Shown: piece after piece, positions 4,399 through 13,176 of the stretch
Layout: each line of letters opens with the position of its first letter
Numbering within the stretch: the first letter of the stretch is position 1
Translations under genes and position numbers: made by a program
DNA from: Clostridia bacterium
Lineage (GTDB): Bacteria; Bacillota; Clostridia; Christensenellales; SZUA-584
Length of the DNA stretch: 64,000 nt
NCBI GenBank assembly: GCA_018648645.1
Contig: JABGQS010000009.1
Location: 1 to 64,000 of the forward strand
Direction: 5' to 3'
Notes under the pieces: model-generated
What the model was told of the DNA's origin: nothing
What the model saw: only the letters and a program-made list of their open reading frames with translations
The model's database searches: none

Positions 4399-4722
4399 AT
4401 GAGAATTGCTTTTAAAAGTATTATCGGAAAAACTATTTTAGTTGGTATGACTGAAGTAAATGAGGACAAAGAACCTTTAAGAAGGATGCAATTTTTTGGC
4501 GTAATATTAAAAGCAGATAATAAAAAAGGAATCAGCATCAAGGTTGAATCAGAAGGGTCAGAGGAGTTTAAAGTATATAACAATAAAGTTTTTATTTTGC
4601 CCCCAGATTTAAGGTCCATCTCCATTGCTGAAAAGGGAGTTTACAGTTTGAAATCTACTAATGAGCAAATTGAGGATCCCGATTTATTAACTAGCTTTAC
4701 AATTTATTATCACAAGCATTAA
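4399..4722 (+). CDS. Small conserved protein of unknown function, immunity-like
   Basis: A 107-residue soluble protein with its own promoter and a ribosome site (AAAGG) 8 bases before the ATG; the longer in-frame start at 4354 lacks one. It begins with a hydrophobic IGKTILVG strand, has an LPPDL motif near residue 73 and a YSLKST / DPDLLTSFTI ending. From memory, this pattern recurs in a widespread family of small uncharacterised proteins often found as single genes. AT-rich compared with neighbours. It overlaps the convergent next gene by 26 bases. Function not assigned. Confidence 0.7.
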   Translation: MRIAFKSIIGKTILVGMTEVNEDKEPLRRMQFFGVILKADNKKGISIKVESEGSEEFKVYNNKVFILPPDLRSISIAEKGVYSLKSTNEQIEDPDLLTSFTIYYHKH

Positions 4723-5155
4723 ACTCCATGCTCTCCAATATATCAATCGCATCATCAACCACCTTCGGGCAAACTTCCTTCACCTGTCTGTAAGCGGCTT
4801 TGTGCACCTGCTCATCGTCGCTAAACATGTCCTCGGTAATCAAATCCGCACACACAGCCGACTCATTTCGCTGCTTAAACTTCTCCATAAACTCGTGCAC
4901 CTTTTTCGTGCAATAGTTCTTCGTCTCAATCACATCGTCCGAATATCCGCTGCACTTGGCGCCAATCACCATCACCGCCGCCGCAACAGCTCCGCACGTT
5001 TCTCTGCTCTTAAACCCGCCGGCAATCCCCAGCGTCAGCTTCAAAGCCATCTGCTCATCCAGCCCAATATCCTCCGCAAACACAACAAGCACCGTCTGCG
5101 CACAGTTGTTTTTATAATAAAATATCTCTTTAGCTCTCTGCCTTTTTTCTGTCAT
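4697..5155 (-). CDS. C_GCAxxG_C_C family protein
   Basis: 152 residues. The layout fits the C_GCAxxG_C_C redox-type family (Pfam PF09719): an N-terminal NCAQ segment, an ETCGAV segment near the middle followed by further cysteines (AKC, NYC, VC), and a helical C-terminus. These proteins are thought to be redox or metal-associated, but no reaction is established. The start at 5155 is set by AAGGAGG nine bases upstream; a longer frame to 5182 would run through that site. Confidence 0.8.
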   Translation of the reverse strand: MTEKRQRAKEIFYYKNNCAQTVLVVFAEDIGLDEQMALKLTLGIAGGFKSRETCGAVAAAVMVIGAKCSGYSDDVIETKNYCTKKVHEFMEKFKQRNESAVCADLITEDMFSDDEQVHKAAYRQVKEVCPKVVDDAIDILESMEFNACDNKL

Positions 5156-5197
5156 TGGTATGCCCTCCTTGTTGTGAAGCATCGAAACCCAACAGCC

Positions 5198-5728
5198 TTA
5201 CAGTTCGTCCTCAACAGTATTCAAATACGGCGACTCAAACTCTTCCACAAACAATCCCGACTCCTCAATTTGCTTAATGGCGTTATCGCATTTCTGTTTT
5301 GAGCCAATATACATGTAATAATCCCAACCAAAATGCACAAACATATCATCTTCATATAAAAGATTACAATTTAGCAAGGCACGCAAATTCAAACGAATGA
5401 TATCAAGTAAATCTGAAGCACCAATAATATCATTTTCCTTAACTTTCTTATATAATTTCTTCATATTCTTACTTGGCTTAATTTTCTGATTTCTAAATCT
5501 AAATCTTCCAACATCAGATGCGGTAAATTTATCTATATTATTGCATTTCTGAAACTCCAAAACAGCACCAATGTATAAATCCTCTACCCTTAAATACTCA
5601 TCTATACTTAATATTTCCCCATTAATATCCTTTCCAATGTCACGCATCATAATCCATTCATCTTTTCCATAATACCCATGTTCATCTCTGATTTCAGGAT
5701 TATATTTTGTTATTCTCCAACTATACAT
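5198..5728 (-). CDS. Uncharacterised soluble protein (MY-WRITKYNP type)
   Basis: 176 residues, AT-rich, no signal peptide or membrane helix. It opens with YSWRITKYNP, then DEWIMMRDIGK and a hydrophilic helical body with Lys-rich segments, and ends with an acidic tail. Proteins with this N-terminal signature occur as lone genes in many Firmicutes; I do not know a function. The start is fixed by GGGGAGG 5 bases upstream of ATG 5728. A longer in-frame reading into the hairpin cluster upstream is not believable. Confidence 0.72.
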   Translation of the reverse strand: MYSWRITKYNPEIRDEHGYYGKDEWIMMRDIGKDINGEILSIDEYLRVEDLYIGAVLEFQKCNNIDKFTASDVGRFRFRNQKIKPSKNMKKLYKKVKENDIIGASDLLDIIRLNLRALLNCNLLYEDDMFVHFGWDYYMYIGSKQKCDNAIKQIEESGLFVEEFESPYLNTVEDEL

Positions 5729-5737
5729 ATATCCTCC

Positions 5738-5877
5738 CCATACCGCGCAGCGGTATGGCATGCTTTTTTTCCTTCTTTTTTTGAAAAAAAGAAGCGGGTG
5801 CTCGAGGGCAGTGCCCTCGTCTCGCACCATCAGGTGCGTACTAGCTCCAGCGCCCTCGTAACGCATCGTCAGATGCG
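5738..5877. repeat. Cluster of five perfect hairpins
   Basis: Five inverted repeats follow each other in 140 bases: a 9-bp stem at 5738-5758, an 11-bp CTTC(T)n stem with one-base loop at 5772-5794, a 7-bp stem at 5803-5819 (CGAGGGC/GCCCTCG), and two 6-bp stems with RTCA tetraloops at 5823-5838 and 5862-5877. The last two hairpins differ by paired changes (CGCACC/GGTGCG versus CGCATC/GATGCG), so structure is being kept. On the minus strand they lie downstream of the psuK-like gene and upstream of the 5198-5728 gene; the second hairpin with its T run could act as a terminator. Confidence 0.7.
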
Positions 5878-5889
5878 CAATCCTTATAC

Positions 5890-6747
5890 CTAAACAGCGC
5901 CTTTTCGCGCGACAACCTCTGCCGCAAACTCAACGCCTTTTTTCAGCCACGTCTGCGGCGGATCTCCGCTTACCATCGAAGCGATAAACGCTGCGTTAAA
6001 CGCATCGCCCGCGCCGGTGGTATCCACGGCGTCCACCTCGTTTGCAGGCCGGCTGTACTCCGCAATGTCAAACATCATCTTTGCCCCGCGGCTTCCCATC
6101 TTCACCGCAACGCACGGCACCGATACCTTACCGACCATTTGCGTAATTGTATTTAGTTCACTTTCGTTTGGCAGAAGAACGTCAGTTAATGCCAACACTT
6201 TTTTCAACACCGTTTTGCCCACGCTGCCCACAACCGGCGTCGGGTCAAGCGCGACCGGCGTACCTCCCGCTTTGGCTTCCTTTGCAATCTCCAGCACAAA
6301 CGCCGCCTGACTTTTCTCGGTCAACATATATCCACTCAGCAGCACCATCGACACTTTTTTAATCCTGCCCGCCAGCGCCTGTGTCACCTTCATCGTGCTT
6401 GCACTTGCGCCGCGGTACGAGAGCATCGTACGCTCGCCGCTGTTGTCTACCATAGTTACGGTAAATCCCGTTTTGCCGCTTTGACGCACAAGCGAAGTAT
6501 CCACATCGCCCTTCTTAAAATTTTCAATAAACGTCTGCCCGTCCGCGTCTGCGCCGACGCTACAGCAAAAATACGTCTTTACACCACACTTGCTGAGCAC
6601 AATCGCCGCGTTTGCCGCGCTTCCGCCCGTGCTTTTGCTAAAATCGACAATCTTAACATCCTGCCCCGCTTTCGGCAGCGCCTCCACATAATACTGGTTG
6701 TCCATAATTGCGTCACCAACGACCAAAACTGAATTTGCATTACTCAT
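5890..6747 (-). CDS. psuK: PfkB-family sugar kinase, probable pseudouridine kinase
   Basis: 285 residues, PfkB/ribokinase fold. Seen: N-terminal VGD-D substrate strand, GGSAANAA near residue 40, DPTP, LLPNESEL, and the C-terminal DTTGAGDAFNAAF anion-hole motif with the catalytic Asp. It directly follows psuG with an ATGA-type overlap, which points to pseudouridine phosphorylation to pseudouridine 5-phosphate. The start at 6747 is used because GGAGG lies 9 bases before it; the ATG at 6753 is only 3 bases from that site. The kinase class is certain; the substrate is inferred from context. Confidence 0.82.
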   Translation of the reverse strand: MSNANSVLVVGDAIMDNQYYVEALPKAGQDVKIVDFSKSTGGSAANAAIVLSKCGVKTYFCCSVGADADGQTFIENFKKGDVDTSLVRQSGKTGFTVTMVDNSGERTMLSYRGASASTMKVTQALAGRIKKVSMVLLSGYMLTEKSQAAFVLEIAKEAKAGGTPVALDPTPVVGSVGKTVLKKVLALTDVLLPNESELNTITQMVGKVSVPCVAVKMGSRGAKMMFDIAEYSRPANEVDAVDTTGAGDAFNAAFIASMVSGDPPQTWLKKGVEFAAEVVARKGAV

Positions 6748-7654
6748 TTGCATACGCCTCCGCTATTTTTGCTGCCAGCTGTGCGTTACTCATCACGAGC
6801 TGTATGTTCGAAAACAAGCTGTTCCCGCCCGTAATCTTCTGTATCTTGTCGAGCAGAAACGGCGTAATCTCCTTGCCTTTCACGCCTTTGTCCTCCGCCT
6901 CACTTATCGCTTTATCAATCATCCCATCGATATACTCTTTGTCCATCGAATACTCGACAGGTATCGGGTTCGCAATCAGCATCCCACCGCCAACATTCAT
7001 GTCCACCTTGGCTTTCAGTATCGTGGCAATCTCGCCCGGCGTGTCAATTTTGTAATCCACATTGAACCCGCTTTTGCGCGTATAAAACGCAGGCAGCTCG
7101 CTCGTCTGGTAGCCAATCACAGGCACACCTTTGGTCTCCAAATACTCGAGCGTCAATCCAATATCGAGTATCGACTTCGCGCCCGCGCACACCACCGCAA
7201 CCGGCGTCACCGCCAGCTCTTCGAGGTCGGCCGACACGTCCATGCTCGTTTGCGCGCCCCTGTGCACACCGCCGATACCGCCCGTGCAAAACACATGTAT
7301 CCCGGCCAAGTGTGCGATAATCATAGTCGCCGCCACCGTCGTCGCACCGTCCTGTTTCTTGGCAATCAACACCGCTAAATCGCGTCGGCTCGCTTTGCTG
7401 ACCTCCAGGCCTTTTTTGCCAAGATACTCAATCTCGTCGTGGCTAAGCCCCGCTTTCAGTTTGCCGCCAATCACCGCAATCGTCGCAGGCACTGCGCCAT
7501 TATCGCGTACCACCTGCTCAACCTCCAGCGCCGTCTGCACGTTCTTCGGGTACGGCATCCCGTGCGATATAATCGTAGACTCCAGCGCCACAACAGGCTT
7601 GCCCTGTGCCAGCGCCTCCGCTACCTCCTGCGATATTTCAAGAAAATTTTTCAT
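6740..7654 (-). CDS. psuG: Pseudouridine-5'-phosphate glycosidase
   Basis: 304 residues, full length for the PsuG/YeiN family, which splits pseudouridine 5-phosphate to uracil and ribose 5-phosphate with Mn2+. Family hallmarks are visible: VALESTIISHGMPYP near the N-terminus, FCTGGIGGVHRG, the AGAKSILDIGLTLEYLET region with the catalytic Lys, then GVPVIGYQT. AAAGG lies 8 bases before ATG 7654. It forms a two-gene operon with the kinase, completing salvage of pseudouridine from RNA turnover. Confidence 0.94.
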   Translation of the reverse strand: MKNFLEISQEVAEALAQGKPVVALESTIISHGMPYPKNVQTALEVEQVVRDNGAVPATIAVIGGKLKAGLSHDEIEYLGKKGLEVSKASRRDLAVLIAKKQDGATTVAATMIIAHLAGIHVFCTGGIGGVHRGAQTSMDVSADLEELAVTPVAVVCAGAKSILDIGLTLEYLETKGVPVIGYQTSELPAFYTRKSGFNVDYKIDTPGEIATILKAKVDMNVGGGMLIANPIPVEYSMDKEYIDGMIDKAISEAEDKGVKGKEITPFLLDKIQKITGGNSLFSNIQLVMSNAQLAAKIAEAYANE

Positions 7655-7688
7655 TGGTTGTTCCTTTCAAGTAATCTTATAAAGAAAA

Positions 7689-8306
7689 CTATTCCACGTC
7701 ACTAATCAGCGAAGGATCAATAATAATTTCTCTTCTAAAATCAGATTCAATACCATGGATTGTTGTATACGCACAAAAGTCTAAATAGATGGGTTCTTTC
7801 TTTAATAATTTCCCATTTACATCGATTACTTTCCCTCCGCCTAATATATTGTGTTTATAAAATCCATAATTAACTTTTCTTTCATATCTGGTAAGTGGTT
7901 GGAAACCAACTGTATAGCAAGTGCCATTTCTCCACAAACCGTCCCCAAACATCATTGGCCCAATAAGTATATTATCCTTTGTAAGTTTTGTAGGGTAATT
8001 ATCTAAGCTCCTTGAGCCATGACGGAAGAAAAAAACCACAAAAAAGCTTTTATCAATATTAGGAAGGTTATGGTTTAAACATATTACTTTGCCGAAGAAA
8101 AATACATCTTCCGGTAGCTTTACAGCAAATATAGTTCCTTCATGAATCTCCGGCTTTCTCTTTCTCTTGATTGGTTTTAGATATATCTTATCTTTCGGCA
8201 GTTTATCTATATTTTCTATTTGCTTCTGTTTCTCTTCTGGTAGAGAGTTATATCTGGTAACAATTCTTCTCCTGCATGGGTTTATATATTCTTCAACAGT
8301 ATTCAT
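7689..8306 (-). CDS. Uncharacterised protein with Imm26-like segment
   Basis: 205 residues, AT-rich, soluble. The middle (GTIFAVKLPEDVFFFGKVI) resembles the start of immunity protein 26-type domains, where a short strand is followed by a FG-R/K-V strand. The N-terminus is basic and charged. It stands alone between psuG and serS, with AGAAGG as ribosome site 7 bases before the ATG. No toxin gene is near. The Imm26 link is a weak visual one; call it hypothetical. Confidence 0.65.
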   Translation of the reverse strand: MNTVEEYINPCRRRIVTRYNSLPEEKQKQIENIDKLPKDKIYLKPIKRKRKPEIHEGTIFAVKLPEDVFFFGKVICLNHNLPNIDKSFFVVFFFRHGSRSLDNYPTKLTKDNILIGPMMFGDGLWRNGTCYTVGFQPLTRYERKVNYGFYKHNILGGGKVIDVNGKLLKKEPIYLDFCAYTTIHGIESDFRREIIIDPSLISDVE

Positions 8307-8335
8307 TTCTGCACCTTCTTCTTATACAATTAAGC

Positions 8336-9598
8336 CTACCCAATCCGATCCACCTTCATATACTCCCTAAGCGCCTCGGGCACATCCACGCTGCCGCCTG
8401 CCCTCTGATAGTTCTCAAGTATCGCCGCCGTTGTGCGCCCCACAGCAAGCCCGCTTCCGTTCAGCGTGTGCACAAACTGCGGCTTTGCGCCCTTTTCGCT
8501 GCGATATTTGATGTTCGCGCGCCGTGCCTGAAAGTCCATAAAGTTCGAGCACGAGCTAATCTCGACGTACTTGCCGTAGCTCGGCATCCACACTTCGATG
8601 TCATACGTTTTCGCTGCCGAGAACCCTAAATCCCCCGTGCACAGTGTCACCACTCTGTACGGTAATCCTAGTTTCTGCAGCACCTTCTCCGCATCCGCGA
8701 CGAGACTTTCCAGCTCCTCCGCCGAAGTTTCGGGCTCCACGAACTTCACCATCTCCACCTTGTTGAACTGGTGCTGACGAATCAGTCCTCGCGTGTCTCG
8801 CCCTGCACTGCCCGCTTCGCTCCTAAAGCACGCGCTGTACGCCGTATATTTCTTTGGCAGCTCGGTCATGATGCTGTCCTTATACATATTCGTCACAGGC
8901 ACTTCTGCCGTCGGCACCAGGAAATAGTCCGTGCCGCTTAGGCTAAACGCGTCCTCTTCAAACTTTGGAAGCTGTCCTGTGCCTTGCATCGAGTTTCGAT
9001 TGACGATAAACGGCGGAAACACCTCTTCGTACTCGCCTTCCAATGTGTGCGTGTCTATCATAAAGCTGATAAGCGATCGCTCCAGCCTGCTGCCTAGGCC
9101 CTTATAAAACGTGAACCTCGCGCCCGTCACTTTCGCCGCAGTCTCAAAATCGAGCACACCAAGGTTCGTGCCGATGTCCCAGTGCGCTTGCGGCTCGAAA
9201 TCAAACTTGCGCGGCTCGCCCCACTTGCGCTGCTCAATGTTGTCGTCTTCGCTGTCGCCAACCGGCACATCCGCGTGCGGCAAATTCGGCGTAGACAGCA
9301 ATAGCGTGTTCAGCTCGCTGTCCAGCACAGCCAAGTCCGCGTCAATCGCTTTCACGTCATCGCTGACTTGCTTCATTTCGTTCAGCAACTCATCAACGTT
9401 CTCGCCCGCCCGCTTCATCACAGGTATCTGCTTGCTTACCTCGTTGCGCTTGGCTTTCAGCGTCTCGGTCTTGACGATAAGCTCCCTGCGCTCCTCGTCA
9501 ATCTGCTTCATCTTCTCCACAACGCCGGTGATTCCGCGCTTAGCAAGCCCCGCAATCACTTCATCCGCATTCGTCCTGATTCTCTTAATATCCAGCAT
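8336..9598 (-). CDS. serS: Seryl-tRNA synthetase
   Basis: 420 residues, normal length. The N-terminal coiled-coil arm that grips tRNA-Ser covers about residues 30-100. Class II motifs follow: [21 protein letters not shown], the motif 2 [21 protein letters not shown] and the C-terminal motif 3 with [25 protein letters not shown] precedes the ATG. No T-box leader is visible in the 113 bases upstream, where only the end of the preceding gene and AT-rich DNA are found. Confidence 0.97.
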
Positions 9599-10295: not shown

Positions 10296-11990
10296 CTACA
10301 TACGCTCTGGTGCACCCACGCCAAGCAACCCCAGCCCCATCTTGATCACACCAGACACGCAGTCGGCGACCATCAGCCGCGCCGCCGTTGCCGCTTTGTC
10401 GTCGCTGATGATCCTGTGCTCAAAGTAGAACCGGTTCATCGCTTTGGCTATCTCGATGATGTGCTTTGTGACAAGGTACGGCTCGCTTTTCTCGCACGCG
10501 CGCTGCACCGTCTCGCCAAACCCAAGCAACAGCTTGGCTATCGCAAACGCCTCTTTGTTGTCAATCGCGCTGTAGTCTTTCTCGTGATTCTTATAATCAA
10601 AATCGGCACGACGCAGCAGACTCTTGCACCGCGCATGCGTATACTGCACATACGGCCCCGTCTCTCCGTCAAAGTTCAGCACCCGCTCAAAGCTGAATGT
10701 CGAGTCCTTTATGCGCGCTGTGCTAAGCGCGTCAAACACCACCGCACCCACGCCCACAACCTTTGCGACGTCGTCCTTGTTCTGCAGGTCGGGTGACTTC
10801 TCGTCAATAATCGCGCGTGTTTTCTCCACGGCCTTTTCCAGCACATCCTGCAAGAAAACCACGTTGCCCTTTCTTGTGGACAGCGTAGCGCCCTCCAGCG
10901 AAACCATGCCAAACGACACGTGCTCAAGGTCCTTCGCCCACTCATACCCCATCAGCTCTACCACCTTAAACCACTGTTTAAAGTGCAAATCCTGCTGATA
11001 CGCCACGACATATAGACACTTGTAGAAATCGTACGTTTTCTTGCGATAAAACGCCGCCGCCAAATCGCGTGTAGAGTACAGCGTCGCACCGTCCGTTTTT
11101 AGTATAATACACGGCGGAATCTCCTCGCCAAGGCGCACAACGTAAGCGCCGTCGCTTTCCTCCAGCATATCCTTGTCTCTTAGCTCGTCAATAATCGGCT
11201 GCATCTTATTGTTATAAAAACTCTCGCCGTCATAGCTGTCAAACTCCACACCCAGCATGTCATAGATGACCTTGACTTCCTTGAGCGTCACTTCCTTAAA
11301 CCAATTGAAAATCTCAAGCGCTTCGGCGTCGCCGTCCTCTATTTTCTTGAACCATTCGCGCGCGGTGTCGTTCAGGCTTTCGTCCTTCTCCGCCTCATCG
11401 TGAAAGCGCACATACAGCGCCAACATCGCAGATATCGAATTGTCCTCGATGTCTTGTCGCCTGCCCCACATTTTATACGCAGTAATCAGCTTGCCAAACT
11501 GCGTGCCCCAGTCGCCTAGGTGGTTTATACCAATCGGGTTATATCCCAAAAACTTGTATATCTTGTAAAGCGAGCTGCCGATAACCGTTGTCGACAAATG
11601 CCCGATATGAAACGGCTTGGCGATGTTGATAGACGAGTAATCGATACACACGTTTCGCCCGTGCCCAATATCGACGCTGCCGAAGGCTTCGCCTTTCTCT
11701 GTCACGTCCACTAATACATCCCTGATTATTCGCGCGTTATCGAGGTAAAAGTTGATATACGCGCCCACAACTTTCGCTTCCTTAACGCATTCGGGCAGCT
11801 CCAGTTTCTCTGCTATTCCCGCAGCAATCATCGGCGGTGCTTTGCGAAACTCTTTGGCCAACCTAAAGCAAGGGAACGCATAATCCCCCATCGCGCTGTC
11901 TGTCGGAACCTCAATCATAGGCTCTATCTGCTCAGCGGGCATATCAGCGGCGTTAGCTAACGCCTGTGCAATTTTTTCTTTATAGTCCAT
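10296..11990 (-). CDS. argS: Arginyl-tRNA synthetase
   Basis: 564 residues, normal for class I ArgRS. N-terminal additional domain, then NIAKPFHIGHLSTTVIG with the HIGH signature, NHLGDWGTQFGKLI, the substitute KMSKS loop STRKGNVVFLQD, and the anticodon-binding C-terminus ending LGVGAPERM, typical of ArgS. AAAAGG precedes the ATG by 6 bases. It heads a short run of minus-strand genes including the small membrane protein and serS. Confidence 0.97.
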   Translation of the reverse strand: MDYKEKIAQALANAADMPAEQIEPMIEVPTDSAMGDYAFPCFRLAKEFRKAPPMIAAGIAEKLELPECVKEAKVVGAYINFYLDNARIIRDVLVDVTEKGEAFGSVDIGHGRNVCIDYSSINIAKPFHIGHLSTTVIGSSLYKIYKFLGYNPIGINHLGDWGTQFGKLITAYKMWGRRQDIEDNSISAMLALYVRFHDEAEKDESLNDTAREWFKKIEDGDAEALEIFNWFKEVTLKEVKVIYDMLGVEFDSYDGESFYNNKMQPIIDELRDKDMLEESDGAYVVRLGEEIPPCIILKTDGATLYSTRDLAAAFYRKKTYDFYKCLYVVAYQQDLHFKQWFKVVELMGYEWAKDLEHVSFGMVSLEGATLSTRKGNVVFLQDVLEKAVEKTRAIIDEKSPDLQNKDDVAKVVGVGAVVFDALSTARIKDSTFSFERVLNFDGETGPYVQYTHARCKSLLRRADFDYKNHEKDYSAIDNKEAFAIAKLLLGFGETVQRACEKSEPYLVTKHIIEIAKAMNRFYFEHRIISDDKAATAARLMVADCVSGVIKMGLGLLGVGAPERM

Positions 11991-12072
11991 TACATTTCCT
12001 TTTCTCTTTTAGTCTCTAAAAATATATCACAACACATCGTTTATATCAACGAATTTGATACTCCCGGTGTTT

Positions 12073-13176
12073 TTATTCCTCGCGCTGCAGCGCTTGCTGC
12101 ATCAACACCGCCGCAATATACTTCGCATCTTCCCACACAATATCGTCAAACAACGCGTTGTCGTGCGGCGTGCTCGTCCCGTCACCCGGCGTAAGCTCAA
12201 CCAGCAGTCCCGGTCGGCTATACTCCTGCCGAAACCAGTTTTCAAACCCTGCGCCATACACTTCCGGCTCCTTTGACGGCGACACATTTGCATACCCGGA
12301 CACCTTTGCCACCGCGTCAGCAACCCGCTGCGCGCTCGGTATGTTGCCCATGCTGCCGCTGTCCGCCCAATAAATAATCTCGCCCTTTGTATGAAACGAC
12401 ACCGCAATTGCAAACTCGTTATTTTCGCACAGTGCCATCAGCGCTATAACTTCCGGCTCGCTCGCGCTGCTGTATCCTTTAAACAGCTCGCTGGCGGGCT
12501 CTCTAATATCGCTCGCCTTCTCTTCCCAAAAACACGGATACTGGCGATTGAGATCCACGCCATTGATATTCGCCTTCCACTCCGCAAAGTCGCTTTTCAC
12601 CATCAACATACTTTTCACAACCTCGCTGCCAATCACGCTGTCAATACCATTGATGACGAGGTTCACACCGTCCGGGTTAATCATCGGCACAATGTACACC
12701 GTTACCGCGCTAAGCAGCGCATCGATGTCATATCCGCCAAACTCCTCGCCCCTCGCCGCCGCGTATAAATACTTGTCAATCGTGTTCATCAAATACGTGC
12801 TGCTGATATATTCTCTCGCATGATGCGCGCCAACAAGCAGCAGTTTCTTTTCGCCGCTGCCCATCTTTATCAGCGTCAAATCTCTTCGCTCAACCGAGCT
12901 TCCGATGCTATCAATCTGCAAATACTGCGGATACATCTGCGCCAGCTCATGCGCATCGCTCACCATCATCTCGTGCGTATACGGCTGATACGGGTCCACC
13001 ACAATTGCGGGTGTTCTCGTTACAGTCGGCGTTTGTCTACCATCCGTCTGCGTTACCGTTTGCGTCGGAGTCTGCGCAATTGCCTGCGCTGCAACAGCTT
13101 CCCTAGTCTCTGCCGCACACCCTGCCCCAAGTATTAAAATAAGCGCAAATAAAAACGCTGTGGCTCGTTTTCCCAT
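12073..13176 (-). CDS. M14 family zinc carboxypeptidase, lipoprotein
   Basis: 367 residues. Signal peptide with lipobox LGAGC (Cys20), Thr/Pro-rich linker, then a metallocarboxypeptidase domain. Zinc ligands: His119 and Glu122 in GAHHAREY, and the His of SFHTKGEIIYW; substrate-binding VDLNRQYP and the catalytic Glu in LLVELTPGDG are present. It likely trims peptides or cell-wall stem peptides outside the cell. No ribosome site precedes the ATG, and a plausible promoter lies so close that the mRNA may be leaderless. Confidence 0.9.
   Translation of the reverse strand: MGKRATAFLFALILILGAGCAAETREAVAAQAIAQTPTQTVTQTDGRQTPTVTRTPAIVVDPYQPYTHEMMVSDAHELAQMYPQYLQIDSIGSSVERRDLTLIKMGSGEKKLLLVGAHHAREYISSTYLMNTIDKYLYAAARGEEFGGYDIDALLSAVTVYIVPMINPDGVNLVINGIDSVIGSEVVKSMLMVKSDFAEWKANINGVDLNRQYPCFWEEKASDIREPASELFKGYSSASEPEVIALMALCENNEFAIAVSFHTKGEIIYWADSGSMGNIPSAQRVADAVAKVSGYANVSPSKEPEVYGAGFENWFRQEYSRPGLLVELTPGDGTSTPHDNALFDDIVWEDAKYIAAVLMQQALQREE

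Follow-up and report, generated by a model that had tools for sequence, protein, structure and literature searches.

Anatomy and position of the hairpin block

Five perfect hairpins crowd into 140 bases (5738-5877) of the 64-kb stretch of clostridial DNA analysed here, which we call the window, and they raise the question of what such a block is and how its stems have stayed paired. As the original prediction had placed it, the block occupies the space between a psuK-like gene and an ORF of 176 aa, both on the - strand.

4697-5182: gene for a putative C_GCAxxG_C_C redox protein; lies downstream of the 176-aa ORF
5198..5728, - strand: ORF of 176 aa, following the block; 5728 picked as its start for the GGAGG at 5733-5737
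5738..5758, no strand assigned: hairpin 1, CCATACCGC-GCA-GCGGTATGG, 9 bp, perfect
5765..5821, + strand: element core, made up of palindrome, YGGG spacer and GGGC hairpin; scores 75.7 bits with covariance model R1, this core being one of the 21 sequences used to build the model
5772..5794, no strand assigned: hairpin 2, the A/T palindrome CTTCTTTTTTTGAAAAAAAGAAG, 11 bp, perfect
5803..5819, no strand assigned: hairpin 3 (GGGC hairpin), CGAGGGCA-G-TGCCCTCG, 8 bp, perfect
5809..5838, + strand: tandem duplication unit 1, made of hairpin 4 and the right part of hairpin 3
5823..5838, no strand assigned: hairpin 4, CGCACC-ATCA-GGTGCG, 6 bp, perfect
5848..5877, + strand: tandem duplication unit 2, 80% identical to unit 1, left arm of the GGGC hairpin not retained
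5862..5877, no strand assigned: hairpin 5, CGCATC-GTCA-GATGCG, 6 bp, with a paired change relative to hairpin 4
5890..6753, - strand: PfkB-family kinase gene (psuK-like), upstream of the block, same strand as the ORF
6740..7654, - strand: indigoidine synthase A-like gene (psuG-like)

On the + strand the order is hairpin 1, a T-run, the A/T palindrome, the spacer CGGGTGCT that joins hairpin 2 to hairpin 3, the GGGC hairpin and the two 6-bp hairpins. All five hairpins described by the original prediction are present. Counting stems of 6 bp or longer, there are 85 non-overlapping perfect hairpins in the window, and its densest 140 bases, with five of them, start at 5738; when the whole window was shuffled 20 times with dinucleotides preserved, the richest 140 bases contained 2 to 4. 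Of the six hairpins in the window whose stems reach 8 bp, three fall in the block. RNA folding of 5700-5900 gives z-scores of -5.65 on the + strand and -4.52 on the - strand (0 of 200 shuffles folded equally well).

The two 16-nt hairpins had been said to differ only by a paired substitution. The stem change, C-G to T-A, is indeed paired, but the loops also differ (A to G). Both hairpins sit in 30-nt copies that are 80% identical and lie 39 bases apart, so this part of the block is a diverged tandem duplication. The 16-nt pattern GCRYCNTCAGRYGC occurs at three sites in the genome, two of which are the block itself; with one site beyond the block, the 16-nt hairpin looks local, and we rejected it as a genome-wide repeat.

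On the - strand, hairpin 1 lies immediately 5' of the ribosome site that belongs to the downstream ORF. We chose the ORF start at 5728 because of the GGAGG ribosome site at 5733-5737, and, judged from the sequence, an ATG start there is more likely than one at 5866. The longest version of the ORF (5198-5866, 222 aa) starts inside the hairpins, and its residues LLFFKKR are encoded by the palindrome, a warning for annotation, since an ORF call may run into a block of this kind. The 176-aa ORF has no Pfam match. Beyond the window genome, a psuK match at E 1e-40 was found in only 1 of 60 relatives.

Copies in the genome and in relatives

The core of the block recurs elsewhere, which bears out the suggestion that it is a genomic repeat block. 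A DNA query matches two other places in the 2.67-Mb genome, at 93% over 59 bases and 84% over 55 bases. The A/T palindrome, allowing up to two mismatches, is found at 11 sites (none for a reversed control pattern), which lie outside genes as far as they were read; two of the 11 carry the paired change CTACTTTT..AAAAGTAG.

Relatives carry it as well; absence from them was one outcome that the original prediction had named as speaking against it. The block DNA query matches in 5 of 61 genomes, counting the window genome and its relatives. With at most one mismatch, the palindrome is present in 5 of 297 genomes of the order, one of which (G005) has 20, and in 3 of 391 genomes of the class, the two samples overlapping in genomes. 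A strict pattern scan matched one viral contig and one genome contig. Using the covariance model built from 21 copies at a threshold of E 1e-4, with E-values that are rough, we obtained matches in 23 of the 297 and 21 of the 391 genomes. All five genomes of the window's family (the window genome and the other four) are among the 23 carriers.

Among the matches listed, many copies occur in G005, G130, G220, G433, G446 and G354; the per-genome counts are counts among those listed, and some palindromes are counted on both strands. Matches beyond the family were found by the covariance model, and any common descent of the distant sets is conjectural; they share the folded plan. Stem letters in G130 and in G433 and its congener G649 differ from the window's. 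That plan consists of a T-rich/A-rich palindrome, a YGGG spacer, a GGGC hairpin with a purine-first loop and often a further hairpin. The repeat is multi-copy and intergenic, and its copies share a secondary structure with covariation, as is general for extragenic stem-loop repeats. We consider it very likely that the block belongs to a dispersed repeat of this kind.

A search of phage and plasmid collections gave no DNA match to 5700-5900, and a search of the open PMC library found no published account of the repeat. Rfam 15 gave no match at E 1 in 4500-8400; across eight related loci it gave three at E 0.1, all of them outside the element cores. One related locus (L070) has a group II intron match at 36-118 (55.1 bits, above the gathering score), and this 3-kb locus also holds an element copy of G446.

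Paired changes across copies

The copies keep their base pairing through changes on both sides of the stems. In an alignment made without structure (A2; 21 copies from the window genome, G002, G003 and G005), 98.9% of cells are paired and 7 of 17 pairs show two-sided change, while controls with slid partners fall to 53-68% pairing. Set aside from A2 were reverse-strand readings of the same palindromes, nine copies of the window genome without the GGGC hairpin, and a single copy of G130. Two further sets behave alike. Sixteen of the 17 matches listed for G130 (A6) are 93.3% paired, with two-sided change in 3 of 16 pairs. The G433/G649 set (A7; 14 rows, 13 distinct) is 100% paired, with two-sided change in 5 of 16 pairs; it comprises 12 places in G433 (10 of the 12 listed and two found separately) and two of seven in G649. 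The covariance that the original prediction had proposed looking for is seen in three sets, relatives included. In shuffle controls, which ignore relatedness, the number of two-sided pairs was matched in 36 of 500 cases for G130 and in 6 of 500 for G433/G649; better evidence comes from the slid controls and from the fact that the sets are three and separate.

The distal hairpin was aligned on its own (A4; eight copies from the window genome, hairpin 1 among them), and here 95% of cells are paired, with two-sided change in 4 of 10 pairs. Shuffles equalled the pair count in 108 of 500 cases and never the cells or the score. The members of A4 follow an A/T palindrome or palindrome-like unit. They are the distal hairpins of 7 of the 11 palindrome sites plus that of a third tandem unit, on contig C14, which the pattern missed; three copies with unrelated distal hairpins (L031, L035 and L037) and the second copy on contig C11 are left out. 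A model-fitted alignment (A5) was excluded from all counts, as it leans to structure and has reverse-strand duplicates.

Across A2, A6 and A7, 798 of 836 cells are Watson-Crick pairs, and the 17 G-T and 10 A-C cells show no clear strand bias. The loop of the GGGC hairpin starts with A or G in 48 of the 51 rows. Paired changes are thus frequent across copies, in keeping with the either/or that the original prediction had put forward, selection or copying with correction; between selection and template-switch copying, sequence alone cannot tell. The many diverged copies would allow the two to be tested against each other as sources of the paired changes.

Turnover in phages

The repeat also occurs in phage DNA, where related loci can be compared. 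A capsid gene in a prophage-like region of G005 has relatives in three viral contigs. The comparison covers two of these, whose capsid genes are 78% alike in DNA; the first (L099) was compared via L018, the G005 locus that it repeats, and the third (L101, 51% protein identity) lay outside the model search. Behind the capsid gene, a copy is present in one contig; the other has a short gap there, with no model match. In the next gene gap both have copies, in opposite orientation. At the same gene gaps, two related phages therefore differ in whether copies are there and which way they point, which indicates that the repeat turns over. The repeat is probably, or was at some time, mobile.

Alternative explanations

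One alternative is that the hairpins form a terminator or 3'-end array that ends the psuGK transcript and protects its 3' end, the 11 copies of the window genome being gene-end elements. Read by hand, the sites examined in that genome do follow closely on a gene and point the same way as it does, and a hairpin with a T-run stands behind some of them (L035, L036). The automatic count for tandem gaps agrees there, with 3 of 3 copies oriented with the genes, but orientation is mixed in G005 (9 of 17), G130 (5 of 9) and G433 (5 of 9). Over the 56 copies of these four genomes, 22 in tandem gaps share the direction of the genes and 16 oppose it; convergent gaps contain 14, divergent gaps 2, and 2 are unclassed. 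The excess of convergent over divergent gaps speaks for gene ends; these counts come from a crude ORF caller that reads some elements into ORFs and wrongly called the window's own gap convergent, and several copies share one gap. A one-way terminator as a general rule was rejected: it fits the window genome by hand and failed in the other three. At the locus itself, no terminator-like site (a GC-rich hairpin followed directly by a T-run) is found on the - strand between 5000 and 7700, the strand of psuK. The sole such site there is 5738-5758 plus its T-run, on the + strand, where it opposes the genes, against a chance mean of 2.6. The termination or anti-termination array that the original prediction had offered is therefore weakly placed, and we regard a terminator or 3'-end array as unlikely.

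The paired changes could instead arise at the level of DNA, if template switching in replication kept the palindromes perfect by copying one arm from the other, with no selected role for an RNA. Template switching can create and maintain hairpins, as described in the part of PMC8794818 that we consulted, and the near-complete Watson-Crick pairing without clear strand bias is what this explanation favors. An inverted loop is one mark of the process, and the GGGC loop keeps its polarity, purine first. This argues mildly against template switching as the sole cause; the point is weak, since inverted loops are rare in that paper's data too. As a full account of the block, template switching seems to us improbable; as a rival or as a partner it may bear on how pairing is kept.

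Small stem-loop repeats have been studied most closely in Proteobacteria, and their spread there is attributed to a domesticated transposase. The repeat described here would share much with a classical REP/REPIN, the kind mobilized by a REP-associated tyrosine transposase (RAYT). REPs of that kind and the REP/BIME families (E. coli PU-BIME; the GTAG/CGTC super-families) are short extragenic palindromes in many copies, often clustered and with alternative paired stem letters, as far as the consulted parts of PMC3733652 and PMC2267715 describe them. However, our repeat is a longer modular unit with a fixed order of two unlike hairpins, and the Y1 transposase (Y1_Tnp, PF01797) is absent from 12 of the 13 carrier genomes tested, the window genome (assembly completeness 95) and G005 among them, yet it does occur in relatives that have few copies, G002 and G003 for example. 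The repeat thus shows the traits common to extragenic stem-loop repeats but fails the REP transposase test. RAYT mobilization was rejected for the genomes tested, and a classical REP/REPIN is very improbable. Apart from PF01797 in one of the 13 carriers, no candidate mobilizing gene was found. In the portion of PMC3733652 consulted, GTAG/CGTC repeats, named for a tag at the hairpin foot, are listed for Proteobacteria, Cyanobacteria, Chloroflexi, PVC and others; the main text of that paper never uses the word Firmicutes.

Other known families offer partial likenesses. The Firmicutes families Clop-1, Clot-1, RUP and BOX are likewise repeated stem-loops, mostly intergenic and in tens of copies; according to the consulted part of PMC2267715 they were delimited genome by genome in a set of 40, and we set them against our repeat by description. 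MITEs resemble it as short non-autonomous repeats whose presence varies between close relatives; they are recognized by terminal inverted repeats and a target-site duplication, and the likeness here rests on the other traits.

A proposed origin and role

Our own explanation, to which we give an even chance, is that the block represents one copy of an extragenic stem-loop repeat, short and modular, which spreads as a non-autonomous element and settles between genes. Such a repeat would be mobile DNA moved in trans by some enzyme, and it might be tolerated, or useful, because it folds in the mRNA between cistrons, in this case psuK and the 176-aa ORF of the - strand. REP repeats of E. coli are held to slow decay from the 3' side and to separate cistrons. 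By analogy, the block could be a passive structure at the 3' end of psuK that slows 3'-side decay and separates the two cistrons. That it acts as a structure in the psuK-ORF messenger is conceivable, and we put it slightly below an even chance.

A bolder extension would join all the sets into one clan of mobile elements, each with several hairpins, that spans the class Clostridia and its phages. In such a clan stem letters would drift freely while the plan stays fixed, because the mover, not a Y1 transposase, would recognize the folded strand and not its sequence. We regard this as speculative and rather unlikely. A structure-conserved set in Clostridia and phage without a Y1 transposase would call for another way of spreading.

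Longer arrangements of the units were also seen. On contig C14 of the window genome (about 11840-12140; L036, about 1360-1665), three element-like units stand in tandem, separated by runs of a GGGGAAC-type heptamer that also precede other copies in this genome. In G220 (C22:49280-50167, L138), element matches form a regular array about 167 bases apart. The G433/G649 unit seems to be about 200 bases long (L092, L072 and L094, around 1350-1800) and includes further hairpins, for example around the core CCCTGCAAGAGAGGG, likewise with paired differences.
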